Assembly (NCBI GenBank): GCA_030535455.1
Contig: JAUNJY010000003.1
Span: 99,449-163,448 of the forward strand
Direction: 5' to 3'
Length of the DNA: 64,000 bases
From: a bacterium
Lineage (GTDB): Bacteria > Bacillota > Clostridia > Lachnospirales > Lachnospiraceae
This document shows positions 15,475 through 34,410 of this stretch, in pieces (within the stretch, counting starts at the first letter, position 1; each line of letters begins with the position of its first letter). Made by a program: the position numbers and the translations under genes. The notes below the pieces were generated by a model, which was given only the letters and a program-made list of their open reading frames with translations, made no database searches and was not told where the DNA came from.

Positions 15475-15516
15475 TCACCTTTTAAATTTTCTTTAAAGTG
15501 TCTGCTTTCTGATTTC

Positions 15517-15553: not shown

Positions 15554-15583
15554 TTTCTTTATTCTAGCCTTCTGTCTAGCCAT

Positions 15584-16060: not shown

Positions 16061-16146
16061 ATTCCTCTTATTTTTGTTTTTTAGTTTACGCATCCTATAT
16101 TTATATCGTACAATGTAAGCAAGCAATTAAGAAAGGAGAATTAATT

Positions 16147-16413: not shown

Positions 16414-16464
16414 TATTTCAGAACAAAGGAGGCTTCTTGAAGAAAAGTTTCCTATGTATTAAAG

Positions 16465-16503
16465 GAAGCCCTAAGCAGGATGACTGCCGAGGGCTTCTTT
16501 TTA
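16465..16503 (+). terminator. Terminator of the DUF4177 gene
   Basis: GAAGCCCT (16465-16472) pairs with AGGGCTTC (16490-16497), followed by T5. Confidence 0.8.
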
Positions 16504-16529
16504 TTCTTAACTATTTAGCTACCTCTATC

Positions 16530-17624
16530 TTACACACATTCCAGCGTATGATACTTAATACGATATTCCTCACCCTTAACACGAATCTTATCTTCATACA
16601 TCTTAGCATCTGCTCTATTACAGATTGTATCCAATCCTTCTAAATCGTTATACTCTGCTATTCCAACAGCGCAGGAATAGGGTGTTTCAGACATCCTCTC
16701 TCTGATATCACTAATAATCTGCTCCATCTCACGGATGCTTAGCCGTCTGCACAAAATTACAAATTCATCCCCGCCAGTCCGATACAAAGTTGCATGTCTT
16801 GGCAGTAGTCTATGTATTGTTGATGCCAATGCTACTATTGCCTTGTCACCTTCAATATGTCCTTTTCGATCATTTAATTGCTTTAAATCATTCAGATCAA
16901 TAGAAATAATACCACTTAACTGTGTTTTCCATTTCTCTGAATCCAAATAAAACCTTCGTCGAAGCAATGCACCGGTCAGTACATCGCGATTGTTCTGATA
17001 TGTGTGGAAAAACATATAATAAAATGCAATAAATACGATAATGCAAGATGGAATAATTGCATCCAGTTGATACAATGTCTCCAATGCAGTTCCGATAATG
17101 GAGTTTATGGCCATCAACAGTAAGAACAGTGCCTCTTCTTTATGAGCGCTCTTAACTAATCTAAAGGTCGACACAATCAATAAGATCCCATAAATACCAC
17201 TGATTACAAACGGTGTATATCCCAAAGGTCCTCGGTAAAATTGATTGTTCCCATCATACCCAAACGCTATGTCACAGAATAATGCAGAAAACGATACCAC
17301 TGCATCAACTACCAACGGAATGGTTATCATCCATTTAATCTTCCTTTGCACCGTCCTAATTGCAATCATCAAAATAAAATACATGGCCATAGGCCGTAAA
17401 ACATATCCCATTGAAGAACAAAACACTCTCCAAATACTTGGGTCGCTTCCCAACGCTAAGATTGACTCTGCCGCATCAACTACCTCAAGTACCAGCACAC
17501 ATAGTGTTGCCGCTATAAAATAATTATTGATTTTCGAATCAAAGCTGTTGTTATGCTTAATAAAAAAGAGCAAAAAGATACTCATAATGGTCCCTGCATA
17601 ATAATAGGGCAAAATATTTATCAT
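16530..17624 (-). CDS. Membrane-bound diguanylate cyclase (GGDEF)
   Basis: 364 residues. About seven hydrophobic segments in the first ~205 residues form a membrane sensor region; the C-terminal ~150 residues are a GGDEF domain with SIDLNDLKQLND, an intact RTGGDEFVIL active site and AVGIAEY. It should make cyclic di-GMP from two GTP. The inhibitory RxxD site five residues before GGDEF is not present, so product feedback may be weak. No EAL domain. Single gene; the ligand of the sensor is unknown. Confidence 0.9.
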   Translation of the reverse strand: MINILPYYYAGTIMSIFLLFFIKHNNSFDSKINNYFIAATLCVLVLEVVDAAESILALGSDPSIWRVFCSSMGYVLRPMAMYFILMIAIRTVQRKIKWMITIPLVVDAVVSFSALFCDIAFGYDGNNQFYRGPLGYTPFVISGIYGILLIVSTFRLVKSAHKEEALFLLLMAINSIIGTALETLYQLDAIIPSCIIVFIAFYYMFFHTYQNNRDVLTGALLRRRFYLDSEKWKTQLSGIISIDLNDLKQLNDRKGHIEGDKAIVALASTIHRLLPRHATLYRTGGDEFVILCRRLSIREMEQIISDIRERMSETPYSCAVGIAEYNDLEGLDTICNRADAKMYEDKIRVKGEEYRIKYHTLECV

Positions 17625-17973
17625 AGCCCATATTCCTCCTTAGTAAAAATTAATCGCTCTCCCATCATTTAAAATTCTAAAATCACTTGTTACTTATTAG
17701 GTTCTTACTATAGACTAATACGTTTAATTATCTAAATTCTAAAAATAAAGCCCTACTGAACATTACTTCAATAAGACTTTATTTTTTAGTTTTTAACTTC
17801 CCAAGTGTTTCCATAAATACATTATACTGAAATCCACAAGGTAAATCAATCCATCAATATTTTAATTATTGTGCTTTTTCTATGACTATCACTTTGCATA
17901 ACATAATACTATTATATAAATGTATAGCTTCTATATTTACTCAATTTTTCTAGTATTGATCTAATTGACTAAT
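17625..17973. other. Non-coding gap between cyclase gene and guaA remnant
   Basis: No credible gene is seen. The only clear structure is AAAATAAAG ... CTTTATTTT at about 17743-17785, a long-loop hairpin that may be a weak terminator in either direction. The rest is AT-rich. Confidence 0.5.
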
Positions 17974-18022
17974 AGAAAAAGCCCCTAGGCCCTTGTATAT
18001 CAAGAACCTAGGGGCTTTTTCT
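17974..18022. terminator. Bidirectional terminator, probably the original guaA terminator
   Basis: AGAAAAAGCCCCTAGG (17974-17989) and CCTAGGGGCTTTTTCT (18007-18022) are perfect arms, with a smaller CTTG/CAAG pair in the loop. It directly follows the stop of the truncated guaA copy, so I infer it ended guaA before the island inserted. Confidence 0.9.
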
Positions 18023-18024: not shown

Positions 18025-18191
18025 TTATTCAAATTCAATCGTTGCAGGTGGTTTCCCCGTACAATCATAAAGTACTCTATTGATACCCTTAACTTCATTT
18101 ACGATTCTTGAAGAAACTTTACCAAGTACTTCCCAAGGAAGTTCTGCGAATTCCGCTGTCATAAAGTCGGACGTGGTTACGGCACGAAGCG
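18025..18191 (-). pseudogene. guaA: Displaced 3' fragment of guaA (GMP synthase C-terminus)
   Basis: Read on the minus strand this encodes the last ~55 residues of GMP synthase, from LRAVTTSDF through [14 protein letters not shown] and a stop. The protein is almost identical to the end of the intact guaA at 32869 (three conservative changes from LRAV on), but the DNA is only about 83% identical by my count. Upstream the frame closes with a stop within five codons, so it is a fragment. It marks the far end of the island. Confidence 0.92.
18044..18069. repeat. Left attachment-site repeat (26 bp)
   Basis: Identical over 26 bp to 32888-32913. It lies in the codons for YDCTGKPPA of guaA and is the longest identical block between the two guaA 3' ends, so it is the likely crossover core. 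Confidence 0.8.
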
Positions 18192-18420: not shown

Positions 18421-18825
18421 ATGAATTATGATGAATTTATGAATATAATTGTTCAATCTAATCCCTCTGATTGGATATATGATGATGCAAAATCAACATA
18501 TATCTATAAACCAAATCTCTACATTTCTATTATAGGTAAAGAAATGGATTACTCAGAATCTGGTTTATTTTATGAGGATTGGGCAACAAATCATCCCGAT
18601 TCAAACGCTCGTAAAAAAGAGTTTGAATTGTGCTTTAATGGAACATGTGTAGATACATTCTATACCGCTTCAGTTGATGGCTCTAGAATGTATATTCCAT
18701 ATCCAAAGTTGGAAAGTATGACAATTACTCAAAAACAATATGCCATTGGAAATATTGTTAATATTCCAAATGAAGGTTATGGATACGACAGTTACCTAAG
18801 TCGTTGTGGCATTACAGTTCAATAA
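18421..18825 (+). CDS. Hypothetical island-end protein
   Basis: 134 residues, acidic and rich in Tyr (SDWIYDDAKSTYIYKPNLYI), with an aromatic, mainly beta-looking pattern and no signal peptide or transmembrane segment. Excellent ribosome site, own promoter and own terminator, on the opposite strand to most of the island. I do not recognise the family. Its place at the island end beside a DUF3800-like gene suggests cargo, perhaps defence or immunity, but nothing in the protein shows this. Confidence 0.75.
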   Translation: MNYDEFMNIIVQSNPSDWIYDDAKSTYIYKPNLYISIIGKEMDYSESGLFYEDWATNHPDSNARKKEFELCFNGTCVDTFYTASVDGSRMYIPYPKLESMTITQKQYAIGNIVNIPNEGYGYDSYLSRCGITVQ

Positions 18826-19037: not shown

Positions 19038-20288
19038 TCATACTTTATAGAAATTGCAATAAGCTCGCTCCAATTCTACACAACAAGAACTATTAAAATA
19101 CTCTGAATGAAGCTTTGCATCAACTTTCTGATATTGCTCAAAATCAGTATATCCAGAAAAATATCTTATCAAAGTATAAAAGACTGAACTTTGATCTCCA
19201 TAGCTCAATGTCATACATGTCCAATATTCTGTATGACCAATTATTAAAACTTCATACAGTAAATGGTATAAATTAAATTGTGCTTCATTTATATCGAACC
19301 AATCTTTACTCAATATGCGCTTTCGTTCCAAGTCATTTTCATATACTTTTCGAATATCCGTTACATGATCTTCTTCTATATCCCTATCATGATACAATCC
19401 ATATATCATTCTTCCAATAAAAGTTGCTAGCCAATCAGATACCCTAAGCTCTAAAATCTTGTCCGATTTTCCACACCTAACATCTTGAAAATCAAATTTT
19501 TTTGCTGCCTCATAAGTTCTCTTTTCTTCATCTATTACTAAGCTTACATCTTCCGATCGAATATGCTTCTCTTCCAGTAAGTTGCATAAACCACCAAAGT
19601 TTATAGTATATTGAAAACCATACTCTCTTTCAGGAAGTTCATTAATCTGGGATTCTTTTAATATGTACAGAATATTTTTGAAGGCCTCTATTTCTTTCTC
19701 TTTTCGTACAATTTCTTTAGTTGCATCTAAAATACATTCAAAATTATACTCAAGTTTTTCTTTAAACTCTATCATCGACTTGTAATCATGTACATCATAA
19801 AGAGTCTTAACAAGTTCTTCATTATGATATGTAAGCATAAATTTAGTTAGTGAGTAATAAAATGAGTTTTCTAATAATCTACCATGTCCTAAATACTCCA
19901 ATCCTCTCAGTGCTGATCTTAGATACAACTCCATCTTACTTACCATGTTTATTTGCAAAACTGGATTTAATGCATCTAACATCGTAAAAAATTCTGTATA
20001 AAATTCCATTGTATTTTTATTAAAAGATCGGATTCCATATATAAAATTCTTTTTCCCTATTGTTGTAGATTTAAGCTCTTGATCATCACTAAGTCCATAT
20101 CGTTTTTTTTGCCGATCTTCAAATTTCCTAATAATATTTCTATTACTTATCAATTCAGAATTTTTACATCCCCAGAACACACCAATATAATTATCAAGAG
20201 CTTCATTACGTAACGTATTGAAATCTCCATTCTCATTAATCCGAATTACTCTATCATGAAAAGATTCATCAAAGAAAAATGTATACAT
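19038..20288 (-). CDS. DUF3800-like protein (RNase H-like fold)
   Basis: About 416 residues starting MYTFFFDESFHD. The N-terminal hydrophobic strand ending in Asp-Glu-Ser, a later SLVIDEEKRTYEAA segment and a C-terminal KILELRVSDWLATFIGR are the three conserved blocks of DUF3800, thought to have an RNase H-like nuclease fold. DUF3800 genes are frequent in mobile and defence regions. I place the start at 20288 because GGAGG precedes it (13 nt, rather long); an in-frame ATG at 20321 has no such site. The middle (~60-300) is helical and unassigned. It is a lone gene, and I infer a defence or mobile-element role. Confidence 0.6.
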   Translation of the reverse strand: MYTFFFDESFHDRVIRINENGDFNTLRNEALDNYIGVFWGCKNSELISNRNIIRKFEDRQKKRYGLSDDQELKSTTIGKKNFIYGIRSFNKNTMEFYTEFFTMLDALNPVLQINMVSKMELYLRSALRGLEYLGHGRLLENSFYYSLTKFMLTYHNEELVKTLYDVHDYKSMIEFKEKLEYNFECILDATKEIVRKEKEIEAFKNILYILKESQINELPEREYGFQYTINFGGLCNLLEEKHIRSEDVSLVIDEEKRTYEAAKKFDFQDVRCGKSDKILELRVSDWLATFIGRMIYGLYHDRDIEEDHVTDIRKVYENDLERKRILSKDWFDINEAQFNLYHLLYEVLIIGHTEYWTCMTLSYGDQSSVFYTLIRYFSGYTDFEQYQKVDAKLHSEYFNSSCCVELERAYCNFYKV

Positions 20289-20387
20289 ATCTATTGGATA
20301 ACCTCCTTTTTCATTGTTCAAAATAAGCTTGCATATTTCTACATATATTCATTGTATCCTGTATCAATTATTACAGCAATACATTCT

Positions 20388-20996
20388 TTATGCTACTCTG
20401 TTACATATACCTCGTTGATAATCTATTTCATACTTCCATCTGTATCCTCCAGCAGTCCTATTAATTCCCTTACAGCACTTTGAAATACCAGACTTATGAA
20501 CCCCGACCGCCTTACTTGCTAAAACAAGAGAATCGTATACTGTAATGAAATTTCCATACTGATCTAAGCATACTACCTTCACAGAATTGGCTTCACTAAT
20601 CTGCTTCCTTTGATCTAGTGATACAACCTTTCCCTTGTTGGCTCTTCCGATTCGTTCTTTTGTCTTATTGGAATGTTTTCCACCTTTGCCACCTGCACGA
20701 AGATTATATCCAAATGCTTCATCCTGTGTTCTTAGCATAGCGATTAATCGTTTCTCTAACTCCTCAGCCTGTTCAGTGGACATAAACTCTCCTACAATTC
20801 TACTTTCAAATGCATCTGCTCCATACTTCTGAATTGCACCATAAAACTCTGTACAGTTTCGGTAGTCCGCAAACTGCTTATTTCCACGCCTCGCCTTTAA
20901 TGACTGATTTGTCATTCCTACATACTTCTTGTTATTATATTTGTTAGTATAGATATACACGATGTACTTTGATTCCTTATGACCTTTGTTCTTCAT
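20388..20996 (-). CDS. GIY-YIG endonuclease with NUMOD-type DNA-binding tail
   Basis: 202 residues. The N-terminal GIY-YIG core is visible as YIVYIYTNKYNNKKYVGMT, followed by the conserved LKARR, a catalytic-type Glu region (STEQAEELEKRLI) and YNLRAGGKGG. The C-terminus has NUMOD-like repeats (SEANSVKVVCLDQYGNFI; SLVLASKAVGVHKSGISKCC; GGYRWKY), as in homing endonucleases. It lies just downstream of the terminase/protease module. It may be a free-standing homing endonuclease, or serve packaging as endonucleases near terminase genes do in phages. Confidence 0.88.
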   Translation of the reverse strand: MKNKGHKESKYIVYIYTNKYNNKKYVGMTNQSLKARRGNKQFADYRNCTEFYGAIQKYGADAFESRIVGEFMSTEQAEELEKRLIAMLRTQDEAFGYNLRAGGKGGKHSNKTKERIGRANKGKVVSLDQRKQISEANSVKVVCLDQYGNFITVYDSLVLASKAVGVHKSGISKCCKGINRTAGGYRWKYEIDYQRGICNRVA

Positions 20997-21042: not shown

Positions 21043-21070
21043 AAAAAAAGAGATAGGTTTTAACCTATCC
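21043..21070 (-). terminator. Terminator of the terminase/protease operon
   Basis: GATAGGTT (21052-21059) pairs with AACCTATC (21062-21069). The A8 run at 21042-21049 is the U-run in the minus transcript. It overlaps the stop of the protease gene. Confidence 0.85.
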
Positions 21071-21700
21071 CCTCAAACTTGTAATTACCCTTTTTAACTC
21101 TTCAACTTCTTTTCTTCTTAACTGTTGAATGGTTTTCCTCATATACTCTAACAATTGATCTCTTTCATTGTTACTTAATGGAGTTTCGCTGTCTCCAACA
21201 TAGATCATTGCAGAAGGATATGCCGGTTGCTGTTTATGCAGAAGAATACTGATTTCTCTAAGCTCTGTAAATGATAGAATGGTTCTTTCCCAATCATATG
21301 GCTTTGCTGTATCGTTAGAAGTATTCAACCATCGGCTATCTCCCTCAACAAATCCAAATGAGATTGCTCCAATCTGGCTAATGTTTTGCAGTAGTTCAAT
21401 AGAAGGTTCTAATAGAAATTCAAACTCAAATGCTGATTTTGTATCATTCCAATGAAATTCTTTTACCTTCTCCTGCTTATGGTACTGATGATTTAATAAT
21501 AACAATGGCTCTTTTCCTGTCTCTTTCAGTACCTGACCAAATGCCATTGGTGCTATTCTTTCTTTCATAAGTCCCTTTTTATGAGCAGAATATAAGATTT
21601 CTGATTCACTTAAATAGGGGATGCTACCTTTAAGCAGTAGCTCCCCTCCTTCTTTAACACGTATTTCAAACATGCGTATCCATTTTTGACTTCGCTCCAT
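21065..21700 (-). CDS. HK97-type prohead protease homologue (S78/U35 family)
   Basis: 211 residues. The family pattern is clear: RMFEIRV...LLLKGSIPY; an ERIAPMAFGQVL segment (equivalent of E.I.PGAF); LLLLNHQYHK with the catalytic-type His (~residue 70); GAISFGF with the Ser (~113); and RTILSFTELREISILL followed by PAYPSAM. In phages this protease trims scaffold and capsid proteins. Here no capsid or portal gene accompanies it. It follows the coiled-coil gene with a 1-nt overlap and ends the operon. It could act on a helper phage capsid; that is inference. Confidence 0.72.
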   Translation of the reverse strand: MERSQKWIRMFEIRVKEGGELLLKGSIPYLSESEILYSAHKKGLMKERIAPMAFGQVLKETGKEPLLLLNHQYHKQEKVKEFHWNDTKSAFEFEFLLEPSIELLQNISQIGAISFGFVEGDSRWLNTSNDTAKPYDWERTILSFTELREISILLHKQQPAYPSAMIYVGDSETPLSNNERDQLLEYMRKTIQQLRRKEVEELKRVITSLRG

Positions 21701-22335
21701 TAATCTAGTACTCCTTCTAAATAATTCAGTCTCTCATTACATTGCTCTTTTATACTATCAAGCTTATGTGTTACAGCTGAATAAAGCCTTAATATAAGCT
21801 CTTCTCTTGTTGGTAACTGTAACGTTTCCTTAATGCTTTCTAACTCTTGTGATAGCACCTGTATTTCTTTTTCTTTATTCTTTGCAAGAGATGGATTAAC
21901 TTGTTCCAAGGTCTCTACAATTTGCATCTGTTTCTGAATCTCTTTCTCTAGTTCCTCCATCCTTACTTTTCGCTCTCCCTCTGGATATGCTTGTTCTAAT
22001 ATCTCTCCCCTTACCAATTCATTGTAAGTTCTTTGATAAGATGCCACTACTAATCCATCACTTAATTGACATATTAAATCATCAGTCTCCGATCTTTCTT
22101 TTTCACTATAAATTCCCTCTAAATCAATCAAATCCATATTAATTGCATATCCATCTAATTCCTCATTTAATACTCTAAGAGCCTGTTTAGCGACTTCTAC
22201 TCCAATAACATTCTTACGAGTCATATCCTTCGAACATGGATTCACTAATCCATTAATACTAAATAGATAATTTTCGATTTCGTTCATTCTTTTCTTTGTG
22301 ATTCCTTTTTGTACTTTCTTATTTGCCATAATCAT
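21700..22335 (-). CDS. Hypothetical coiled-coil protein in the packaging-like operon
   Basis: 211 residues (209 if the second ATG at 22329 is used, which is better spaced from AAAAGGAGA). Almost entirely helical with a long predicted coiled coil at ~120-170 (MEELEKEIQKQMQIVETLEQ), Glu/Lys rich. No recognised family. Its position directly before the protease gene recalls the scaffold- or protease-linked genes of phage head operons, but I see no sequence support for scaffold function. Confidence 0.7.
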   Translation of the reverse strand: MIMANKKVQKGITKKRMNEIENYLFSINGLVNPCSKDMTRKNVIGVEVAKQALRVLNEELDGYAINMDLIDLEGIYSEKERSETDDLICQLSDGLVVASYQRTYNELVRGEILEQAYPEGERKVRMEELEKEIQKQMQIVETLEQVNPSLAKNKEKEIQVLSQELESIKETLQLPTREELILRLYSAVTHKLDSIKEQCNERLNYLEGVLD

Positions 22336-22344
22336 GGTCTCCTT

Positions 22345-22506
22345 TTATTTGTTATATTTATTTTCTTTAGCATCTTTCAATGCACAGTTGCTGATTACCT
22401 TTTGGTGGTTACTTCCTCTATTCAATACTGATTGAAATTTTAGAAGATATTGCGTAAATTCATCAAGTTCGATTTCTTTGACTTTTGTTCGTACCTTTTT
22501 AGCCAT
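22345..22506 (-). CDS. Small basic protein in the packaging-like operon
   Basis: 53 codons, MAKKVRTKVKEIELDEFTQY to the stop. The ATG overlaps the preceding stop (TGATG at 22504-22508), so translation is coupled to the terminase-like gene. The next gene starts 10 bp after its stop with an AAAAGGAGA site. Basic N-terminus, helical, no recognised family. Confidence 0.65.
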   Translation of the reverse strand: MAKKVRTKVKEIELDEFTQYLLKFQSVLNRGSNHQKVISNCALKDAKENKYNK

Positions 22507-22916
22507 CAGTTTTCCTCCATATCCAAAGCCAAAATTGTCTTTCTTCCCTTTGGTGTTAATCCATAGCTATCAAGTAAAGTTAGAGCCTTAGATGTACCAT
22601 CTAATTTCAGCTTATAAAACTTATGATAGACCATTAGATTTTGCTTGTTTCTAGCTTCTCTTAATTGCTCATTGATAAACTCAAGTTCCTGCAATAGTTC
22701 ACATAGAAGCTTTAATGTTAATAAATCTGTGTTAATCAAATTAGGAACCTGATCTAATAGAAACTGAGCCATTTTCTTTGCATATGCCCCATCTACTAGC
22801 TTTATAAGCTCATTATTTTCTATCATATCTGTATCAATAGAAGTAAAATATGCTTGTAACTCTTCTTCTTTACTTGTTGTATTAACTACCGCACGATTAT
22901 AAATTAAATTCTCCAT
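22506..22916 (-). CDS. Probable phage terminase small subunit, P27 family
   Basis: 136 residues. The centre and C-terminus follow the P27 pattern: INTDLLTLKLLCELLQEL (the 'D..L..lc' helix), a charged helix EFINEQLREARNKQN, a KLKLDGTSKALTLLDSYGLTPKGRKTI segment with the typical (L/Y)GLTPxxR end. Small terminase subunits choose the DNA to be packaged. Phage satellites often carry their own to redirect helper packaging; no large subunit is present here. The start overlaps the end of the ribbon-helix-helix gene by 13 nt. Assignment is by motif only. Confidence 0.6.
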   Translation of the reverse strand: MENLIYNRAVVNTTSKEEELQAYFTSIDTDMIENNELIKLVDGAYAKKMAQFLLDQVPNLINTDLLTLKLLCELLQELEFINEQLREARNKQNLMVYHKFYKLKLDGTSKALTLLDSYGLTPKGRKTILALDMEEN

Positions 22917-23086
22917 GCTTTTTTCCTCTTTTCTTGTGTTGTTTCAAATGATGCATGATTCTTGAAGTACATCTTTAATCCAACTCTTACAATATCGCTA
23001 ATTGATAAACCACTATGGAAACTCTCTTGTTCTAGAGCTTCTTTTTCCTCTGTCTCCATTCGTAAACTCACTACTGTATATTTCAT
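22904..23086 (-). CDS. Ribbon-helix-helix DNA-binding protein
   Basis: 60 residues: a beta strand KYTVVSLRMET, a helix EEKEALEQES, then the turn LSISDIVRVGLKMYF typical of CopG/MetJ-like folds. It opens the terminase-like operon and overlaps the next gene by 13 nt. Probably the operon's regulator. Confidence 0.75.
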   Translation of the reverse strand: MKYTVVSLRMETEEKEALEQESFHSGLSISDIVRVGLKMYFKNHASFETTQEKRKKAWRI

Positions 23087-23226
23087 ATGGACTCCTTTCT
23101 TGTTTTACATGTAATAATTAAAAATCTCACAAAAATGCAAGATATTGTACGTAAATGTAGGGCTGCACTCATAATCCGTAAACAAAAAAATAATTGCCCA
23201 CTACGGACAACTTAGCTCTCCTTTAT

Positions 23227-23373
23227 TTACTTATTGAATCGTTTACTTGCTTGTCTGATTAAATAACGAATATATTGTGACATAGTAAAGTAATTCTGTT
23301 CTGCCCCAACTCGTAACAACTCTTTTTCTTCTTGTGACATATTTACAAGAATACTATGCTTTTTTTCAACCAT
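23227..23373 (-). CDS. Small ribbon-helix-helix-like protein
   Basis: 48 residues from MVEKKHSILVNMSQEEKELL to QASKRFNK, with the strand-helix-helix layout of RHH/MobC-like proteins (ILVNMSQEEKELLRVGAEQN, YIRYLIRQA). The ATG at 23373 is preceded by AAAGGAT; an in-frame ATG at 23400 would add nine residues. It may regulate replication or packaging genes, but this is inference. Confidence 0.6.
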   Translation of the reverse strand: MVEKKHSILVNMSQEEKELLRVGAEQNYFTMSQYIRYLIRQASKRFNK

Positions 23374-23530
23374 TGAATTATCCTTTCTTTTCCTCTGCAT
23401 AACGTACGTATCTGACTTAATAGTTCCAACAAATATCAGAACTAATTAAGCAATGTACGTACAGCTATATGCAATGATATAAGTCTTCTAGGGATATATA
23501 ATTACTATATATCCCCTCACCCTCTTTGTC

Positions 23531-24400
23531 TTAAGAAGCAAGTTTTTGTCCTACTTTTGAAACTTTTTTTCTGTAGTCCACTACTTTTTCCCCATAGTAA
23601 AGTGCAATCTTCTTACATACTTTTAAATACCGTTTCCGGATGCCTGAGAACTGAATATGAAACTCTCCTTCTAACTCTTTCAATGTATAACCTTGATTAA
23701 TTTTATACAGCAGTTCTACCTCAGATTTACTTAATACTCCTTGCTGTTCTAACTTTTCAATAGCAACTCTTATGTCCAGTGCTATAAGTGTCAATGTATC
23801 ATTAGGGATAATCTCTGATTCTAGTGCTATATTATTAATTAATGCTTGGACATGCTGCTCATTGCTATAGTCAAGGAAACTCCAATCAATTGTTTCTCCA
23901 ATATAAGAATTTCTATGAGGCTTCTCAGTATAGCCCATAAGCTGTTTTTTCACCTCTAGCATATCCTTTGCTATTTCACTAGCAAGATACTTATATTTGA
24001 ACAGTGTAATAGCTTTGGATTCATACTGTTTGTTATAATACTGCTTTAGTTGCTCATACTGTCTCAAGATAGTTCCCATATAATTAGGTGCATTGAGATC
24101 ACTAGTGGTAACTTTCCAATCATAATTTACATATCGATTTCTTGTATCCATAATCATACTGCCATTGATGATATCTAGGTCTACACCACTATTTTTCTTT
24201 TTATTCTTCAGGCTATCATCCAGATTGTAACTGGTATCATTCCGAAATGATTTATCTCTCTCCACATCAGGAGAATTAAGTAAGTACGTTGCCAATGTAT
24301 CAAGATTTGCATGGGTTAATTTTTTCCCTGCGCTCTCAATTTCAAAGATAAATGCTTTTCTTTCTGTAAATAATAATGTATTATCTAGATTTAGTTTCAT
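23531..24400 (-). CDS. Hypothetical protein with C-terminal sigma-like helix-turn-helix
   Basis: 289 residues. The N-terminal ~200 residues are helical and unassigned. The C-terminus (LSKSEVELLYKINQGYTLKELEGEFHI..IRKRYLKVCKKIA, ~225-265) resembles a sigma-region-4/late-regulator helix-turn-helix. It lies between the replication-like gene and the packaging-like operon, where a phage-type activator of late genes would fit. A hairpin AAGGAGC/GCTCCTT at about 24462-24481 lies in its leader. Confidence 0.6.
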   Translation of the reverse strand: MKLNLDNTLLFTERKAFIFEIESAGKKLTHANLDTLATYLLNSPDVERDKSFRNDTSYNLDDSLKNKKKNSGVDLDIINGSMIMDTRNRYVNYDWKVTTSDLNAPNYMGTILRQYEQLKQYYNKQYESKAITLFKYKYLASEIAKDMLEVKKQLMGYTEKPHRNSYIGETIDWSFLDYSNEQHVQALINNIALESEIIPNDTLTLIALDIRVAIEKLEQQGVLSKSEVELLYKINQGYTLKELEGEFHIQFSGIRKRYLKVCKKIALYYGEKVVDYRKKVSKVGQKLAS

Positions 24401-24613: not shown

Positions 24614-25423
24614 TTATATCAAAATGCTGTAGAAGCATTGTTTCTTAGGTGTAGAAACACTAATTTCACCATCCACTACAATTGTCTTGCAATCATACTC
24701 TCTCCTTATACGAATTAATCCTACATGCTCAAGTTCTTTTGAAGCATCTGTGATAATTGATCTAGAGCTTGGCTTGTACCCCATATTTTTTAACAATGTA
24801 TCTTGGTATACTAGTGTTTCAATATAACTACTGGAACTTCTATCCCAACAAAGCCATAGTAAATTGATAAACATTTTAATTGCTTTACTGCTACACTTCA
24901 GAAGCTTATCGTGTATATCATCAATTGGAACACGAACAAATCCTCCTGCTTTATATTGCACTTGTATACAATGAATCGTTATCCCCTTATACTCTCTCAC
25001 CACAAGAGAAAACTCCGAAGAACCTTGATCGAGTAATTTTTTTAATTCATTTCGGATTCGTTTTTTACTTAATCCTAAGAGCTTATGCATTCTATCTAAA
25101 TTTCTATCAAACTTTGATAATGACATATATCTAACGTTGTCGCCCGCTTGCATATACATATCTACATTAGATAAAATACAGACAATAATTAGGATTCTAA
25201 AATCACAGTCCGTTCTCAATATTAGCTCTTTGGTCGGAATAGGTACGTAGTTTTGAGTGGTATAGAAATGTAAATCCTCATACAGGATTTCTTCTTGTTT
25301 AACTAATTGAACTTCTTCGTTTTTCTCATGTGGACTATCCACTTGTGAACATGTAGTATCCTCATTTGAAATGCACCATGTTTCCAAACAATCAGGCATA
25401 GTAAAACCGCTTTTAATACTCAT
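24614..25423 (-). CDS. Replication-initiator-like winged-helix protein
   Basis: 269 residues. After a ~60-residue variable N-terminus come two winged-helix-like units: ILIIVCILSNVDMY..RYMSLSKFDRNLDRMHKLLGLSKKRIRNELKKLL, then KAIKMFINLLWLC with a second RSIITDASKELEHVGLIRI unit. This is the layout of plasmid and ICE replication initiators of the RepA_N/Rep_3 style, without a decisive signature. Next to RHH genes inside the island, a role in island replication or its control is plausible. Confidence 0.5.
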   Translation of the reverse strand: MSIKSGFTMPDCLETWCISNEDTTCSQVDSPHEKNEEVQLVKQEEILYEDLHFYTTQNYVPIPTKELILRTDCDFRILIIVCILSNVDMYMQAGDNVRYMSLSKFDRNLDRMHKLLGLSKKRIRNELKKLLDQGSSEFSLVVREYKGITIHCIQVQYKAGGFVRVPIDDIHDKLLKCSSKAIKMFINLLWLCWDRSSSSYIETLVYQDTLLKNMGYKPSSRSIITDASKELEHVGLIRIRREYDCKTIVVDGEISVSTPKKQCFYSILI

Positions 25424-25475: not shown

Positions 25476-25640
25476 TTAAAATCCTCCATCTTCTTTTCTC
25501 TGGTTTTCTATAAATGCTACTAATAACTCTTCTATAACTGAGCTTTGCTTCCTATCACTAACCAAACATGCAATCTTAAACTCCTTCACGAGTTCCTTAG
25601 TGAGACGAACATTTAGCATTGTATCTTTTATTTGTTTCAT
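25476..25640 (-). CDS. Ribbon-helix-helix (CopG-like) protein
   Basis: 54 residues, MKQIKDTMLNVRLTKELVKE onward: the strand TMLNVRL followed by two helices (KEFKIACLVSDRKQSSVIEELLVAFI), a classical RHH. I chose 25640 because GAAGGAGT precedes it; a longer frame to 25676 has no such site. It precedes the replication-like gene and may regulate its copy number, as RHH proteins do on plasmids. Confidence 0.7.
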   Translation of the reverse strand: MKQIKDTMLNVRLTKELVKEFKIACLVSDRKQSSVIEELLVAFIENQRKEDGGF

Positions 25641-25746
25641 GCTTCTTACTCCTTCAAAATATTCTTTGTAAATCAATATGATTTGCTTTACAATTCATTA
25701 TCCGAAGCCACTTATGAAAACGTAAAAGGCAAATTAATTTTGGGTA

Positions 25747-25814: not shown

Positions 25815-26744
25815 CTAGGCTAGATAAAATTCCTTATTTATTATACAAAGTATTCCATAAAGTAATGCTGTAACATTTAAATGATAGTAATTCTTGTATG
25901 TAGAATTACTATGTGCTAAATCATTTCTCAAATTTAACTTCTTTGTAGAAAATAGAATCTGCATTGTTTTTCTAAATGTCTGATTTGTATATCTTTCAAA
26001 CTCTATTGTTCCTACCAGTTGATTTAATGTTTTAAAGCCTTTAAGTATATCTTTCTCTGATCCTGTTAGGGTTATACCATAACGTTCGAGTAATTCAATG
26101 AATCCCTCTCCACAAGCATAAATACTGTTATATAATTTTGAATTTTTTCCAGTTAAAAAGTGGTATAAATCGATATCTTCCACACTCATAGTAATTTCAT
26201 TTGCATCCATTTTTGCTTTTAATTCCTGTATTTTCTCATTGAAAACCAACAGCTTTATTCTTCCCTTTAGTTCATTTTCGATTAGAGTTGCAAATATTAA
26301 CGTTGCACCATAAGCAGTATTACGTCCTGATGCCTTAGCATCTATTAACTCATTATATGCTGACCTAAGTAAACTCGACGTGGAAATAGCACCGCAAACG
26401 CCATCCTCTACTTGTTTTAGCCTAATATCTGGCTGATCAAATATATTAAAATATATCTGTCCCAAAACATTCGTATAATTTGTAAAATAAACAATTTGCT
26501 CATTGGATAAATTATAATTGTAATGATCAACATCTTCTATATCAGAAAAAACAAACTCTGAATTTTGAATCTCATTTTCGCACATATCAATTACATCATT
26601 AAGTAACTTAATAGTTTCATTCTTATTTGAAAAAATATTATAGTCAGAAAACTTTCTAGTATTATCCATCACAAACTGATTAGTGTCTGCATAATTTTCT
26701 AATACAACTCCTTGTTGCTTCGTAAATACATATTTTTTACTCAT
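25815..26744 (-). CDS. HEPN-like protein next to the ABC-3C operon
   Basis: 309 residues, helical. Near the C-terminus, LNLRNDLAHS contains R-x4-H (~residue 276-281), the active-site motif of HEPN ribonucleases, followed by a long helix YYHLNVTALLYGILCII. The N-terminal ~120 residues are unassigned. It lies 82 bp after the SMC-like gene on the same strand, with a terminator behind it, so it may be a fourth member of that system or a separate toxin-like cargo gene. The family assignment rests mainly on the motif and helix pattern. Confidence 0.55.
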   Translation of the reverse strand: MSKKYVFTKQQGVVLENYADTNQFVMDNTRKFSDYNIFSNKNETIKLLNDVIDMCENEIQNSEFVFSDIEDVDHYNYNLSNEQIVYFTNYTNVLGQIYFNIFDQPDIRLKQVEDGVCGAISTSSLLRSAYNELIDAKASGRNTAYGATLIFATLIENELKGRIKLLVFNEKIQELKAKMDANEITMSVEDIDLYHFLTGKNSKLYNSIYACGEGFIELLERYGITLTGSEKDILKGFKTLNQLVGTIEFERYTNQTFRKTMQILFSTKKLNLRNDLAHSNSTYKNYYHLNVTALLYGILCIINKEFYLA

Positions 26745-26826: not shown

Positions 26827-28743
26827 CTATTCATTCTCATTCTTAACCTTAAACAACATACCGTTATCAGACAAATATTGTATTCTATACGGATCTAAGT
26901 CATTTGTATACTCATCATAACCACATGTCACAATTAACTGGCAATCCTCGTTAAATTCAAGCAAATATCGCTGTAGACGAATTAAATCCTGAATTTCAAT
27001 ACCACCATTTTTCATTGTGTCCATAAGGAGAAATCGTGGATAATTAATCTTTATCTCATCATTTAATGACATTTTAAGAAACGTCAAAAAATAAAACACA
27101 CGTTTAGGAACACTAAAGCTCTGTTCCCTATAACCTGGAATAATAGGCACATAGTTTCTATCTAATTTCAGGCCATTATAATTTTGATCATTATAGAAAT
27201 CTGATAAATACTTACTATAGATTTCCTGAAACATTCCTATATTCTCATCTAGTATCTTTTCCTTCTCTTCTTCTAATGCCTCTAATCTTGACTTTTTCTT
27301 CTGTAACTCTGTAGACTTTTTATTTATTTCAGATTGTTCTTCTGAAATCTTTTTATAGTACTCATTAATTAACTCTATATTTCGAATCTCTTCATTTAAT
27401 CTTATTATGTTATTGGAAATCTCATCTATAGAAGTATATCTATTATTGCCAACAGAATTAACTATACTTTTTATGGTATTAATAGTCTCTTCTTTCTGTC
27501 TATATGCTACTTCTATTCTCTCCTTGAATCTTTTAATATCCTCTTCGTAGCTGCTAATACTTCTTTCTACTGTCTGGAGACCTTTTACCTTAGACTTAAT
27601 CATGCTCTTATACTCTTTATCACTATAAATAAACCTACTAAAGTCCAAATATTTATCAGATCCACATATACATCTTTTATTTGACAAATCAACCTTTTCA
27701 TTACAAAATGGGCATCTATCTTCAGCAATAATATCAATATAGCTGGCTGTAAAAAGAATCTTCTGTAACATTTCTATCTCACTTAGAATATCTTTTTTAA
27801 CAATCTTACTCTTTGATAAATTACTCTCAGCACTATTTACCTTATCATCATACGAACTAATTATGTATGTATATTCGATTAATTTCTTTTGTAATTCTAA
27901 TAAGCTCTCTTGTATTCCTTCTCCTAAGGGACTATCCTCTTCTTGAATCTCGTCCCTTATACTAACTAGCCTTTGTCTTTCTTTTTTACATTTTTCTAAA
28001 CTCATCAATATATTTTCTTCGGAAACATCAATATTAACAACAATCTTATCTTTTATTATCTGTATGCTCTTAATCTCATTTTTTTTGTCCTCAATTTCTT
28101 TTTGTATATTTCTTATTTCATTATAGACTTGATAATATTCTGGCATAAAGCTCATCATTAAAACTTCAAATATTGCACGCTTCATTAACTCACTATTTCT
28201 AACGTAATTTTTACTTGAGATGCCAAACTCTCCTATTATTGTTCTATTATTTCCCTGCTCATAGTACACATATCTCATCAAATCTTCAAAGTTAAGATAA
28301 TGTCGTTGATTATATTGCTCCATTTGTACAATATCAATATTTAATTTATTGCAGATCCAATCAGAAAATGTTTTCCCTTCTTTCTCATATAAGTAACCAT
28401 TTCTTGTTATATTCAATATAAGATATTCTTCTGTTTTAGGATTATATATATTAATAAAGTTATCTCCAATTGCTCGTTTTAATACATATACTTGATTCCC
28501 AATTTCAACTTCAAGCGCTACATAATTGTTATTATCTGTTGTTATAACTGTAATGTTTTCTTTCTCTTTTGAGTCAAAATATTTTACTTCCATTCCCAGT
28601 GCATAAACTATCAAATATGTAAATGTTGATTTTCCGTTTCCGTTATCCCCCTCCACAACATTAAGTCCCTTTTTAAATTTGTCATTAAAATAATAGTACT
28701 TGTCGCCTTCATACTTTAATGATTTTATTACTATTCTTCCCAT
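26827..28743 (-). CDS. SMC/Rad50-like ABC ATPase of a Lamassu/ABC-3C-like system
   Basis: 638 residues. Walker A EGDNGNGKST (~31-40); long coiled coils (~200-330 and ~375-510) around a zinc-hook-like CPFC...CICG at ~342-358; then a C-terminal ATPase half with FLLMDTMKNGG in the Walker B position. The usual catalytic Glu after the Asp is Thr here, and a canonical LSGGQ signature is not visible (FSVPKRVFYFL lies there). These variants occur in LmuB/DdmC-like and other three-component ATPases. It overlaps the small middle gene by 13 nt. Likely role: DNA sensing that unleashes the nuclease subunit. Confidence 0.78.
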   Translation of the reverse strand: MGRIVIKSLKYEGDKYYYFNDKFKKGLNVVEGDNGNGKSTFTYLIVYALGMEVKYFDSKEKENITVITTDNNNYVALEVEIGNQVYVLKRAIGDNFINIYNPKTEEYLILNITRNGYLYEKEGKTFSDWICNKLNIDIVQMEQYNQRHYLNFEDLMRYVYYEQGNNRTIIGEFGISSKNYVRNSELMKRAIFEVLMMSFMPEYYQVYNEIRNIQKEIEDKKNEIKSIQIIKDKIVVNIDVSEENILMSLEKCKKERQRLVSIRDEIQEEDSPLGEGIQESLLELQKKLIEYTYIISSYDDKVNSAESNLSKSKIVKKDILSEIEMLQKILFTASYIDIIAEDRCPFCNEKVDLSNKRCICGSDKYLDFSRFIYSDKEYKSMIKSKVKGLQTVERSISSYEEDIKRFKERIEVAYRQKEETINTIKSIVNSVGNNRYTSIDEISNNIIRLNEEIRNIELINEYYKKISEEQSEINKKSTELQKKKSRLEALEEEKEKILDENIGMFQEIYSKYLSDFYNDQNYNGLKLDRNYVPIIPGYREQSFSVPKRVFYFLTFLKMSLNDEIKINYPRFLLMDTMKNGGIEIQDLIRLQRYLLEFNEDCQLIVTCGYDEYTNDLDPYRIQYLSDNGMLFKVKNENE

Positions 28744-29261
28744 ACCAATACTCCATTCTGCTTAAATAAATTATCTACTACTGTTATATAATTAATTGTT
28801 CTGATTCTCGGTACTGTACTTCTAATCTTTCTAATATTGCTTATCTCCGATTTAAAAAGATTATTCTGGGCAAATAATTTTGCAATATCTTCTCTTATAA
28901 GTATCACATTCGTTTTGCCTTCTTCTGATTGTAACTGAACCATTTCTTTTTTCTCTAAAAGCAATAACACATATCTTAACATAGTAATATTCTGAAATGA
29001 GTTATAATACAGCTTCTCTAGTTCATGTCTTATAGAATTGTTTGCTTGAGTCTTTCCTTTATAGTAATCACCAAAAATTTGTGTTAATTCACTATCACTA
29101 ATTATTGGGATTAAAAATACTAGTTTTCTGTAATCCTTAAAGTAATTCCTCCCAGTATTATTTAGCTCACATAGAATTAATATAATACTGTATGTAATCA
29201 TATATAAGTCCTCATTTTCATTATACAGTAAACGTTTTAAATCAAATTCCTTATTCCTCAT
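28731..29261 (-). CDS. Small middle component of the Lamassu/ABC-3C-like system
   Basis: 176 residues, helical, with a possible winged helix in the C-terminal half (MLRYVLLLLEKKEMVQLQ...NVILIREDIAKLFA). It overlaps both neighbours (11 nt with the nuclease gene, 13 nt with the SMC gene), so the three are one translationally coupled unit. Size and position fit the middle component (LmuC/DdmB or ABC-3C 'MC') that bridges effector and ATPase. There is no sequence motif of its own, so the call rests on context. Confidence 0.6.
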   Translation of the reverse strand: MRNKEFDLKRLLYNENEDLYMITYSIILILCELNNTGRNYFKDYRKLVFLIPIISDSELTQIFGDYYKGKTQANNSIRHELEKLYYNSFQNITMLRYVLLLLEKKEMVQLQSEEGKTNVILIREDIAKLFAQNNLFKSEISNIRKIRSTVPRIRTINYITVVDNLFKQNGVLVWEE

Positions 29262-30498
29262 CTTCTACCTCTTCCTCAAAACAGAAAAAACACTCATCGA
29301 TAAGTAGCATAACTATTTTTTCAATGACTATCTTATTATTTATACCATAATCATAATCCTGTTTCAGCGATTCAATATCTTTGACAGCACTCTCTTTTAA
29401 TTCGCTTACAATAGCCTTTAACTCTCCAAACGCATAATTATTCTTATATTTCACTTTATCATCAAAGGTTCGCTCCATACTTTCGTATACGCGATATCGT
29501 AAAGCTTTTATCTGATTTTTATCATAATTCTTTAGTTCTGCCCTAACAGTTGTTGCCTCATTATTGAACCGTTTCATAGAGCTACTCTTAACAGAAGAAC
29601 ATACTGCTCTAATTTTCTCCTCTATATTACGAAATTTATCTTCACCCAATGATTCCTCTATTTCGTTCCAGTTTTCATAAACAGAATCTATTCTTAAAGT
29701 AGTACCTGTTTTCTCAGATTCATAAAATATGTTTTTCACCATATCAGTATTGATAATTTTCTGAAAAACCTTATCATACGCCATACGCTCATCAATCTTA
29801 TCCAATAAAATACTTGATATTGATTCGATACTATTTATGTGAGATGCATTAAAAAAACGACTTCGACGAATTTCATTGTGATATGATTCCATTATAGTAC
29901 TTAAACTATCTTGTCCAAATTGAAACTCTATCTTCTGTAAAAAAGTTTTCCAATCATCATTTGAAAATCTCTTTATCTCATTATAATGTCCAATATCCTT
30001 TTGTTCTTTATTTTCTATATCCTCTTCTTTTATTCCGTATGCATCCTTATAGTTTGATATCAAAAATTTCTTTATATATTCTAATACTTCATTGGAATAA
30101 TCTTTATCTATTAATGCTTTAATTACTCCATTTTTAGGAATAGTTAATCCCAGCTCCTTAATTCGTTCAGTACTCCTCTCTTTCACATAATCTACGTTTG
30201 TAAAAAATACAAACACCATCTTACTTGGTTTTCCCAGCTCGATATATTGATCTAAAAAATTAATAAAGGACTTTACTATTTCCTCACTATTAAAACTAAA
30301 ATTTTTACTATACTCCTTATCCTGTTCTAAGACTTCTTCGCCCTCTTTATTAATAAAAAAATTATCATCTCTAAACTCAGGAATAGCAATTATATTGGTT
30401 TGATCATCTTCATAAATTAACTCCAACACTCTTTTAGCTAATCTAATCTTTTGATACCGATATCCCTTATATGTACTACTTGCCTCTCTGTTAATCAT
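29251..30498 (-). CDS. Cap4-like (DUF4297-type) nuclease effector of the Lamassu/ABC-3C-like system
   Basis: 415 residues. The N-terminus STYKGYRYQKIRLAKRVLEL, then IPEFRDDNFF and VLEQDKEYSKNFSFNS, follows the GxxYQ - E..DD - Q.K order of Cap4/DUF4297 PD-(D/E)xK-like nucleases found as LmuA/DdmA effectors. The catalytic assignment is by pattern only. The C-terminal two thirds are helical and probably contact the partners. I chose the ATG at 30498 (GGAGT 8 nt upstream); a GTG 9 nt earlier is in frame. It is first in the order nuclease - middle component - SMC, the same order as ddmABC. Confidence 0.65.
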   Translation of the reverse strand: MINREASSTYKGYRYQKIRLAKRVLELIYEDDQTNIIAIPEFRDDNFFINKEGEEVLEQDKEYSKNFSFNSEEIVKSFINFLDQYIELGKPSKMVFVFFTNVDYVKERSTERIKELGLTIPKNGVIKALIDKDYSNEVLEYIKKFLISNYKDAYGIKEEDIENKEQKDIGHYNEIKRFSNDDWKTFLQKIEFQFGQDSLSTIMESYHNEIRRSRFFNASHINSIESISSILLDKIDERMAYDKVFQKIINTDMVKNIFYESEKTGTTLRIDSVYENWNEIEESLGEDKFRNIEEKIRAVCSSVKSSSMKRFNNEATTVRAELKNYDKNQIKALRYRVYESMERTFDDKVKYKNNYAFGELKAIVSELKESAVKDIESLKQDYDYGINNKIVIEKIVMLLIDECFFCFEEEVEDEE

Positions 30499-30839
30499 AA
30501 TTAGCACTCCAATTATTCACCTAAATATTTTTAGGTTACTTATATTAATTAATATCATTTATAAATTTAAATGTATTTTTATAACTATTCTAATCTATAT
30601 ATTGTTTATTTACAAGATAATGGATAATACTACTTATTGAGCCAATAATTTTAATTCTTTCTTTACTTAAAACTGCTTAAATATCACTGGTTACTAGATT
30701 CTAAGGTGCAATATCGTATCTTACCTTATCAGCAATAAAAAATTGAAGACATAGCAAGATACCTGATTATATCACCGTATAACTGAGTTTCTCGGCTTAA
30801 ACATCTTCTATTCGTACTGATTTATGTAATCACATTAGT

Positions 30840-31186: not shown

Positions 31187-31213
31187 TGATAGACTACTAA
31201 TGAGGTGAAAAGA

Positions 31214-31396
31214 ATGGCCAATAATTTATATAAAACTAGAAAACAATACACAATGACAGTTGATACAAAATTATTTGATACATTGAATGAATTATCAAGA
31301 CAGACTAGAATCCCTAAGTCAAAACTTGTTGATGAAGCATTAGAATTGTTGTTTGAAAAACATCAGATAGAAATCCTTGTTCAAAATGAAGAATAG
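31214..31396 (+). CDS. Ribbon-helix-helix regulator, integrase-proximal
   Basis: 60 residues: QYTMTVDTKLFDTLNELSRQ and IPKSKLVDEALELLFEKH give the strand-helix-turn-helix of a CopG/Arc-type repressor. The ATG at 31214 follows TGAGGTGAAAAG. It is divergent from the defence operon and convergent with the integrase gene, directly behind the TAACGTTGTA repeat array. Probably an autoregulated switch for the island or the defence operon; a partner toxin is not seen. Confidence 0.8.
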   Translation: MANNLYKTRKQYTMTVDTKLFDTLNELSRQTRIPKSKLVDEALELLFEKHQIEILVQNEE

Positions 31397-31458: not shown

Positions 31459-32457
31459 TTAATACTTCTTTATCTTTACATTGTCATATTTCTTATGTTT
31501 GGGTTTAAAATCCTCCAATGGATTAAACTCATCTACAATATTCACAAGATCAGTAGGATTGAATGCATAGTAACGTTCTAACATCTTCATACTCTTATGC
31601 CCTGTGATCCTTTTTAGCATAACTGGTGACATTCCTTTACGTACTGACAAGGTAATAAACGTATGTCTGTACAAATGTAATCCATACCGCTTAACCCCTC
31701 TCCTTAGCGAATATCTCTTAACTAATGTCTGTAATACTGTCCTTTGTATCTGCTCCCCGTAGATATTACAAAACAAATAGTCCTCTCTAGATGCATTCCG
31801 AACTTGTATCCACTCACTAAGTGCCATATGAAGTGTTGATGATATCGGTATAATTCTAGCTTCATTGTTCTTGGTCACATTTAAAGTAATATAGCCTTGC
31901 TCCAAACTTACATCCTTTATTCTAAGATTTCTAAGCTCCTGTGCCCGAATTCCAGTAGAAAGAAATGTGCTAATAATAACCCATGCTCGAAACTCACAAA
32001 AGTCATTCGAAGTAGGTCTCTTCAATAAAACCTCTAGCTCTTCTTGCGTATAAATATCTTTAATTGTCTCTTGTTCCACCATATGCGTAAACTCAATCTT
32101 CTCTTTGATATATCCCTTCTCTACTCCATATAGAATTGTTGGTGAAACTTTGAATACATAGCTGTTGATTGTTGTCGCCTTGTGAGCTTTCTGTAGATGT
32201 AAGTAATAGTTATTAATAAGCTCCTGCGTTACATCGTAACACATTAAATCATATCCAGCAAAATCAAGAAAGTATCTAGTAGCGTACTCATATCCTTTTA
32301 TTGTAGTCTCTGATAAATTCTTTATTTTACATACCCTAACATACAATTCAAATAGGCTACGGTAGCTTATATTCGTTACTGCATACTCAGCTGACACCTT
32401 TCTCTTCCTTCTCTTAATCTCTGGTAAAATAGTTGTTTCCATTGGCTCTTTGTTCAT
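31459..32457 (-). CDS. int: Tyrosine recombinase/integrase of the island
   Basis: 332 residues. An N-terminal SAM-like core-binding domain (~35-130) is followed by the catalytic domain with the first Arg in STGIRAQELRNL, the HLYRHTF box (His and Arg), the late TGHKSMKMLERYY box with the second His and the nucleophilic Tyr. It is about 410 bp from the guaA 3' repeat, the expected position for an integrase next to its attachment site. Expected function: integration and excision at guaA. Confidence 0.95.
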   Translation of the reverse strand: MNKEPMETTILPEIKRRKRKVSAEYAVTNISYRSLFELYVRVCKIKNLSETTIKGYEYATRYFLDFAGYDLMCYDVTQELINNYYLHLQKAHKATTINSYVFKVSPTILYGVEKGYIKEKIEFTHMVEQETIKDIYTQEELEVLLKRPTSNDFCEFRAWVIISTFLSTGIRAQELRNLRIKDVSLEQGYITLNVTKNNEARIIPISSTLHMALSEWIQVRNASREDYLFCNIYGEQIQRTVLQTLVKRYSLRRGVKRYGLHLYRHTFITLSVRKGMSPVMLKRITGHKSMKMLERYYAFNPTDLVNIVDEFNPLEDFKPKHKKYDNVKIKKY

Positions 32458-32868: not shown

Positions 32869-34410
32869 TCACTCGAATTCAATCGTAGCAGGTGGTTTCC
32901 CCGTACAATCATACAGTACGCGGTTAATACCCTTGACTTCATTTACAATTCTAGAACTTACTTTTCCGATTACTTCCCAAGGAATTTCAGCAAATTCAGC
33001 TGTCATAAAGTCAGTTGTTGTTACTGCACGTAATACACATGCATAGTCATACGTTCTTTCATCACCCATACAACCAACAGATTTCATATTAGTTAACGCT
33101 GCAAAGTACTGGCCGATTTTACGATCCCAGCCAGCTGCTGCGATTTCTTCACGGTAGATATAGTCTGCATCTTGTACTAAGCGTACTTTTTCAGCAGTAA
33201 TATCACCAATGATACGGATTGCAAGACCTGGACCTGGGAATGGCTGTCTGTATACTAAGTATTCAGGGATGCCAAGTTCAAGACCAGTTTTTCGAACTTC
33301 ATCTTTGAATAAAAGACGAAGTGGTTCAATGATTTCTTTAAAATCTACACAATCAGGAAGACCGCCAACATTGTGGTGGGATTTGATTACAGCAGATTTA
33401 CCAAGACCGGATTCAATAACATCTGGGTAGATTGTTCCTTGAACAAGGAAGTCTACAGCACCAATCTTTTGTGCCTCTTCTTCAAATACACGGATGAATT
33501 CTTCACCGATGATCTTACGTTTTTCTTCTGGTTCTGTTACGCCTGCAAGTTTTTCATAGAAACGTTCTTGAGCATTTACACGAATAAAGTTTAAGTCGTA
33601 GTGGCCTTCTGGACCAAATACTGCTTCTACTTCATCGCCTTCATTTTTACGAAGTAAGCCGTGGTCAACGAATACACAAGTTAACTGTTTTCCAACTGCT
33701 TTGGAAAGCATTACTGCTGCTACTGAAGAATCGACACCACCGGAAAGGGCACAAAGAACTTTACCGTCGCCAACCTTTTCACGGATTGCTTTAATTGACT
33801 CTTCAACAAAGGAATCCATTTTCCAGTCGCCAGAACATCCACACACTTCAAATAAGAAGTTAGAAAGCATTTTTGTACCTTCTACCGTATGCTCTACTTC
33901 TGGATGGAATTGCACTGCATATAAGTTCTTATCTGCATTTTCCATTGCTGCAAATGGGCAAGACTCTGTATGAGCACTTGCTGTAAATCCTTCTGGTAAC
34001 TTAGAAATATAAAGTGAATGGCTCATCCAGCATACAGTAGATGCTGCAACACCTTTAAATAATTTGGATTCGCTGTTTGTATTCACTTCTGTCTTTCCAT
34101 ATTCTCTAAGAGTTGCTTTTTCTACCGTACCGCCCAATAAGTGACTCATAAGCTGTGCACCATAACAGATTCCGAGTACTGGAATACCAAGGTTAAAGAT
34201 TTCTGGATCGCACATTGGAGCGCCTTCCTCTGTTAAACTGGATGGGCCTCCTGTAAAAATGATACCTACTGGGTTGATTTCTTTGATCTTCTCAATACTT
34301 GTATTGTATGCCATAACCTCACAGTATACATTACACTCTCTGACGCGTCTTGCAATCAATTGATTGTATTGACCACCAAAGTCTAGAACAATAACCATTT
34401 CCTTCTTCAC
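32869..34410 (-). CDS. guaA: GMP synthase (glutamine-hydrolysing)
   Basis: 513 residues: a class I glutamine amidotransferase domain with the nucleophile in GICYGAQ (~residue 80) and FHPEVEHT His-Glu; an ATP-pyrophosphatase domain with the P-loop [10 protein letters not shown] (~225); and the dimerisation domain ending KPPATIEFE. It converts XMP to GMP. The reading frame is intact, but its 3' end holds the island's attachment repeat, and the final 6-7 codons differ from the displaced copy at 18025. The native terminator has been separated from it. Confidence 0.97.
32888..32913. repeat. Right attachment-site repeat (26 bp)
   Basis: Identical to 18044-18069; it encodes YDCTGKPPA of intact guaA. 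With its partner it bounds the island. Confidence 0.8.

Follow-up and report, generated by a model that had tools for sequence, protein, structure and literature searches.

A divergent prohead protease and a small-terminase-like gene on a compact Lachnospiraceae island without recognised head genes

A five-gene block on an integrated island at guaA

Analysis of a 64,000-nucleotide stretch (hereafter the window) of contig JAUNJY010000003.1, from a member of the Lachnospiraceae, Clostridia (assembly GCA_030535455.1; 4.35 Mb in 126 contigs, completeness 93.6%, contamination 7.7%), uncovered an integrated island that carries a block of five minus-strand genes (window 21065-23086). These encode, in order, a ribbon-helix-helix (RHH) protein, a small-terminase-like (TerS-like) protein, a basic 53-aa protein, a charged 211-aa protein and a relative of phage prohead proteases (Peptidase_S78; hereafter the window S78). 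As a preliminary description of the locus had it, the five genes have coupled or closely spaced starts; all five open reading frames (ORFs) are open, the intergenic gaps are −13, −1, +9 and −1 nt, and an AGG-type stretch precedes every start. The block would form one operon, with its RHH protein as a likely regulator. One terminator-like hairpin closes the block and another sets it off from a sigma-like gene and a small RHH-like gene; since shuffled sequence would give 3.0 such sites in 15 kb and the real sequence has four, the hairpins are suggestive by their place and not by their number. TACGTAC sites near the RHH genes were considered as a signal and dropped, the motif being over-represented across the whole window.

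The island spans 14,844 bp between two identical 26-bp copies of an attachment (att) core at the 3′ end of guaA. One copy lies in the intact gene and the other in a displaced guaA 3′ end that is 83% identical to it over 174 bp. GC content is 0.31 in the island; the 10-kb flanks have 0.38 (8001-18000) and 0.39 (33001-43000). The block-carrying island is integrated, satellite-sized and outside any prophage, and it shares with phage-inducible chromosomal islands (PICIs) a length of about 15 kb, a terminal integrase and a specific att site.

The block encodes a divergent prohead protease and a probable small terminase

The last gene of the block firmly encodes a Peptidase_S78 relative, as the preliminary description proposed. 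Its product scores 24.0 bits against Pfam PF04586 (cut-off 21) and matches phrog_80 (E 4e-7), and a profile built from eight related S78 proteins, window protein excluded, recovers it and no other of the 200 window ORFs (E 2e-7 over residues 20-203). His71 and Ser114, which we take to be the catalytic-type residues at positions given by the alignment, are invariant across 19 aligned S78 sequences, and a PAY motif near the end of the protease core is retained. The structure model has the fold common to phage and herpesvirus assembly proteases, with T4 gp21 and prohead proteases of phages as its nearest matches; a C-terminal helix is predicted at residues 177-210.

The second gene encodes a probable small terminase of the P27/HK97 type. 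It matches phrog_83 (E 8e-4), and its model, built with TerS relatives as input, has an HK97 TerS-like fold, the top two matches among solved structures being the HK97 small terminase. A Foldseek comparison of this model with BFVD gave no match. Profiles were also built from two groups of prophage genes presumed to encode TerS; they missed the window protein and were set aside, and on reading, one of the groups (c12) held other proteins.

No head gene or HK97-type helper prophage was recognised

The absence of large terminase (TerL), portal and major capsid genes noted in the preliminary description held up: island ORFs of at least 50 aa gave no TerL, portal or capsid profile match at E 0.01, and none appeared when island proteins were scanned against Pfam and PHROGs. 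What makes the island unusual is that it has the protease but no recognised capsid gene. In the host assembly there was no PF05065 capsid and no PF04860 portal match at E 0.01, and so no HK97-type helper prophage was seen. A helper may come from outside, have another head type, or lie in the missing part of the assembly.

Coordinates of the block and of the other island features are collected in Table 1. Read inward from guaA, the integrase and the RHH_3 gene are followed by a Lamassu-like cassette (26827-30507), in which LmuA-like and LmuB-like genes stand together and whose defence function is putative, then by the gene of the 309-aa protein and the genes nearer the block. Between this gene and the block lie small RHH-like genes, a weakly replication-like gene and the sigma-like gene. 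An RNDLAH stretch near the end of the 309-aa protein resembles the HEPN RX4H motif. The weakly replication-like protein matches DnaD-like phrog_186 (E 0.22), HTH_36 (E 0.13) and phrog_8453, of unknown function (E 0.0015). An Rfam search gave no match. Outside the island, a 1058-aa ORF (8856-12032) would be an odd fusion or frame junction; judged by eye, its first part resembles a UvrD/HelD-type helicase and its end the start of a glycoside hydrolase 31.

Table 1. Features of the guaA island in window coordinates, and a satellite-like island compared with it
Feature	Position	Strand	Basis or remark
att core copy, far end	18044..18069		within displaced guaA 3′ end 18025-18162
134-aa gene, island end	18421..18825	+	partial PADLOC PDC-S50, E 1.6e-9, profile positions 182-275 of 387
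427-aa protein, family unknown	19038..20321	-	Pfam, NCBIfam: nothing over cut-off; PHROGs, PADLOC: no match
GIY-YIG endonuclease, beyond block-closing hairpin	20388..20996	-	PF01541 31.7 bits, cut-off 22.6
Terminator-like hairpin closing block	21047..21074	-	hairpin search
Prohead protease relative (Peptidase_S78), 211 aa, His71, Ser114	21065..21700	-	Pfam, PHROGs, alignment, model
211-aa charged, putatively coiled-coil protein	21700..22335	-	composition, weak profile matches
53-aa basic protein, start overlapping TerS stop	22345..22506	-	no family in PHROGs/Pfam scans
Small-terminase-like protein, P27/HK97 type (probable), 136 aa	22506..22916	-	profiles, model
RHH protein, 60 aa, first gene of block	22904..23086	-	phrog_876 E 2e-7
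Terminator-like hairpin upstream of block	23192..23212	-	hairpin search
Second small RHH-like protein	23227..23400	-	weak profile matches
Sigma-factor-like regulator	23531..24400	-	phrog_5767 E 1.2e-15
Possibly replication-related protein (tentative)	24614..25423	-	weak matches
Arc/RHH-like protein	25476..25676	-	phrog_3180 E 0.0011
309-aa protein, cargo	25815..26744	-	no family match over cut-off (Pfam, PHROGs, PADLOC scans)
LmuB-like SMC ATPase of cassette	26827..28743	-	PADLOC LmuB E 9e-52
Small middle gene of cassette (LmuC place, by position only)	28731..29261	-	only JetB E 0.005
LmuA-like protein of cassette	29251..30507	-	PADLOC LmuA E 9e-20
Divergent RHH_3 gene beside integrase	31205..31396	+	PF12651 61.2 bits
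Tyrosine integrase	31459..32457	-	PF00589 97.5 bits; adjoins guaA
att core copy, integrase side	32888..32913		in 3′ end of intact guaA 32869-34410
L155 island (other bacterial family)	G531:C1:2184700-2204600		satellite-like, several insertion sequences around

S78 genes elsewhere usually lie among head genes

To place the window S78 in context, 71 other S78 loci were read: 51 from the family, 16 from the class and four from the order of genome G531. Another head gene lies nearby in 68 of them; the exceptions are L057 (unresolved), L169 (decayed) and L155 (an island, described below). The family set comes from a phrog_80 search (51 matches in 47 of 397 family genomes), and each locus was read together with its flanking sequence; five lie on contigs shorter than 10 kb. 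When neighbouring ORFs were clustered by sequence, with cluster names assigned by us and few members checked against PHROGs, a TerL-cluster gene was present at 43 of the 51 loci and a portal, capsid or fused-cluster gene at 50, the sole exception being L057 on a contig of 9.8 kb. Four of the eight loci without a TerL label (L046, L057, L058, L099, L101, L102, L108 and L115) are on contigs below 10 kb; L046, from the same genus as the window, is an island with capsid and portal genes and no recognised TerL.

Searching 291 class genomes with an S78 profile that included the window protein produced 17 matches, spread over 15 genomes and counting the window's own. Portal and/or capsid profiles match at 14 of the other 16 loci, L169 being a decayed fragment and L155 having neither, and TerL, portal and capsid all match at the four loci from the order of G531. 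S78 genes as divergent as that of the window would escape this survey, the window protein itself being absent from the phrog_80 matches.

The L155 island encodes an integrase, a replication-initiation protein (phrog_678, E 3e-20), a sigma factor (phrog_351, E 6e-19), a 232-aa protein and an S78 (phrog_80, E 8e-10), along with two small genes that read by eye like excisionases; no head gene was recognised in it. A search of 10 further genomes from the same genus did not recover its S78, which also matches phage head maturation proteases, best that of a Flavonifractor phage (E 2e-11). When 51 proteins were compared with the window S78 by BLAST, that of L155 ranked first (27% over 154 aa, E 2e-5), with two prophage proteins close behind, and the sigma-like proteins of the two islands match weakly (pair E 0.011).

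In a tree of 52 S78 proteins the window protein joins L046 (95/87) and then L155 (86/36); all three are long-branched, a situation in which, by the program's own warning, the joins may be false. The window S78 has the longest end branch of the tree (3.55). A same-genus island in G265 (L091 11491 to L092 5055) carries an integrase, a major capsid gene (phrog_10), a portal gene (phrog_12) and an S78, with no recognised TerL, TerS or tail genes, and then a 1253-aa gene. It looks like a reduced capsid-forming satellite.

Close relatives of the island proteins are scarce

Close relatives of the window S78 were sought in phages and plasmids, with no tblastn match (E up to 10 for phages), and pattern scans of viral and genome contigs brought up none that was confirmed. 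Its own genome is the sole match among 299 family genomes. Neither a profile from all 37 collected S78 proteins nor a genome-wide PF04586 search at E 0.001 listed it. Sequence-based PDB searches returned nothing relevant. No close relative of the TerS-like protein was found in phages or viral contigs. The 211-aa protein has nothing convincing among phage proteins (best E 9), the 232-aa protein of L155 is likewise without a convincing match, and the sigma-like protein has no phage relative; in 397 family genomes the latter matches itself and one weak sequence (E 2e-4, internal stops).

For the integrase, four genus genomes yielded its own gene and weak matches, and a pattern scan of viral contigs yielded none. 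Scans with its C-terminal part found three viral contigs at 38-46% and, among genomes, two contigs: a guaA remnant of Anaerosporobacter faecicola, also a member of the Lachnospiraceae, and a metagenome-assembled genome of Arcobacter. The former is a broken integrase remnant beside guaA (L077 14421-14776 in G166, also L089; 66-75% identity), and guaA in that species was probably once occupied by an island with this type of integrase. Stretches downstream of guaA in 20 genomes among those listed (two of them shorter than 2 kb) held nothing of the island beyond integrases and a single weak RHH match. In several of the family genomes listed, a contig edge falls no more than a few hundred bases away from the 3′ end of guaA, as would fit a frequent integration or repeat site.

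Discussion

The layout of the island is consistent with a PICI-like satellite whose five-gene block serves as a packaging and head-redirection module, a reading that we consider evenly poised. Because it encodes a packaging adaptor and a head protease and no recognisable head gene, the island may tamper with the heads of another phage. The satellite interpretation of the preliminary description thus stands in part. The island is satellite-sized and outside a prophage, both folds are matched (that of TerS less firmly), the block was found in no prophage, and head genes were not recognised; the five genes sought in other islands were found together nowhere else, and only the order of sigma factor, protein of similar size and S78 recurs, once, in L155.

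That no counterpart of the whole block turned up is one of several results that weigh against such a satellite. The window S78 reaches only 16.9 bits against the HK97 prohead protease equivalog (NCBIfam TIGR01543, cut-off 59), for which reason we class it as a divergent S78 relative and not as an HK97 equivalog, and Foldseek alone gave its model no PDB match with E < 0.001. The TerS-like protein scores 22.5 bits against Terminase_4 (PF05119, cut-off 24.7) and is therefore filed as TerS-like and not as a confirmed member of the P27-type family first proposed; two profiles of our own rank it first among window ORFs without significance (E 0.1 and 0.25), and its model drew on TerS relatives. The 211-aa protein does not convincingly resemble capsid delta domains (best hhalign probability 2.6%), and it shows no detectable similarity to the 232-aa protein of L155. 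No primase was recognised in the island by Pfam or PHROGs scans, which did give the weak replication-like match, and no Stl-type repressor was recognised, in the absence of a comparison with Stl; the divergent RHH_3 gene adjoins the integrase. The S78 proteins of L155 and L046 are most closely related to prophage proteins and not to the window S78, so a satellite-specific S78 lineage is not established. In L155 an insertion sequence with copies elsewhere (8351-9657) overlaps the last S78 codons (from 9643), so that head genes may have been lost there.

The main rival is decay from a capsid-forming PICI (cf-PICI) or a prophage, in which portal and major capsid genes were lost and TerS and S78 are leftovers without a role. 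We consider this unlikely, while acknowledging several points in its favour. cf-PICIs carry capsid, protease, portal and terminases (PMC10690885; for this and every paper cited here by PMC number, in the part of the text available). The G265 island, whose S78 joins that of the window in the tree (95/87) by what may be a meeting of long branches, retains both the capsid and portal genes; the branch of the window protein is itself the longest, and L155 looks degraded by insertion sequences. Against decay, all five block genes are open and tightly coupled up to the closing hairpin, the island contains no recognised fragments of head genes, and the protease retains His71, Ser114 and the PAY motif.

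It is improbable, in our estimation, that the S78, with or without the 211-aa protein, is an interference weapon that ruins helper heads by untimely or wrong cutting and builds no satellite heads. Staphylococcus aureus pathogenicity islands (SaPIs) do carry interference genes beside terS (PMC12409344), and the present island also bears the Lamassu-like cassette; no protease used in this way was found in the accessible phage-satellite literature, however, and linkage with a TerS and a possible scaffold would suit assembly better. Least probable is an unrecognised head set, with the 427-aa or 309-aa protein as a capsid or portal too divergent for profiles: neither matches a family over cut-off, but the 427-aa gene lies beyond the closing hairpin and the endonuclease gene, and no portal, capsid or TerL profile matched.

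Known systems resemble the island in parts. Like cf-PICIs, it combines a head maturation protease with a terminase small subunit (PMC10690885), whereas their own major capsid, portal and large terminase genes have no recognised counterpart here. TG93, a Vibrio PISP satellite-plasmid, also has both genes in a small satellite, but it encodes capsid protein E and no integrase was detected in it (PMC13230959). In SaPI operon I (cpmAB, terS, pti), terS likewise sits beside proposed head-redirecting genes (PMC12409344), although size redirection there is by CpmA and CpmB. The helper of the cos-type SaPIbov5 has an HK97-like capsid cluster with a herpesvirus-like protease and a delta-domain capsid protein (PMC8569155), the helper type we infer for the window island; SaPIbov5 supplies a capsid homologue, Ccm, and the window island would be the converse. 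Among the islands described above, that of G265 shares an S78 of the wider subfamily and the lack of recognised TerL and tail genes but has capsid and portal genes, and L155 shares the integrase, replication gene, sigma factor, protein of similar size and S78 without a recognised head gene but lacks a recognised TerS, and its S78 end is overlapped by the insertion sequence. No satellite with a prohead protease and without a capsid gene was found in the accessible parts of the phage-satellite literature, subscription papers being mostly outside the search.

If the island is a PICI-like satellite, induction by a helper phage would lead to its excision from guaA and replication. Its TerS might then pair with the helper large terminase and direct packaging to island DNA. 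Satellites redirect heads by means of scaffolds or capsid homologues, and the 211-aa protein could enter the helper procapsid as an added scaffold or size redirector. By analogy with HK97, the island S78 may be carried into the procapsid by its C-terminal helix. There it could cut the scaffold domain of the helper capsid protein together with the satellite scaffold, completing heads that might otherwise be left unprocessed by the protease of the helper. The scaffold of HK97-type phages is an N-terminal delta domain of the capsid protein and that of P2 forms part of the protease (PMC6893505), and in HK97 and T4 the phage protease cuts the scaffold (PMC3185693).

More broadly, and tentatively enough that we lean against it, a class of Clostridia satellites may take over helper head maturation with a scaffold-protease pair of their own and a TerS, without a capsid protein. 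If so, the satellite would decide both the scaffold to be incorporated and the protease that cuts it, and protease supply would be a control point for head piracy. For SaPIbov5 it has been left open by which protease Ccm is cut (PMC8569155), and the window island is relevant to that question: here the protease would itself be satellite-borne, and its part in head maturation testable.

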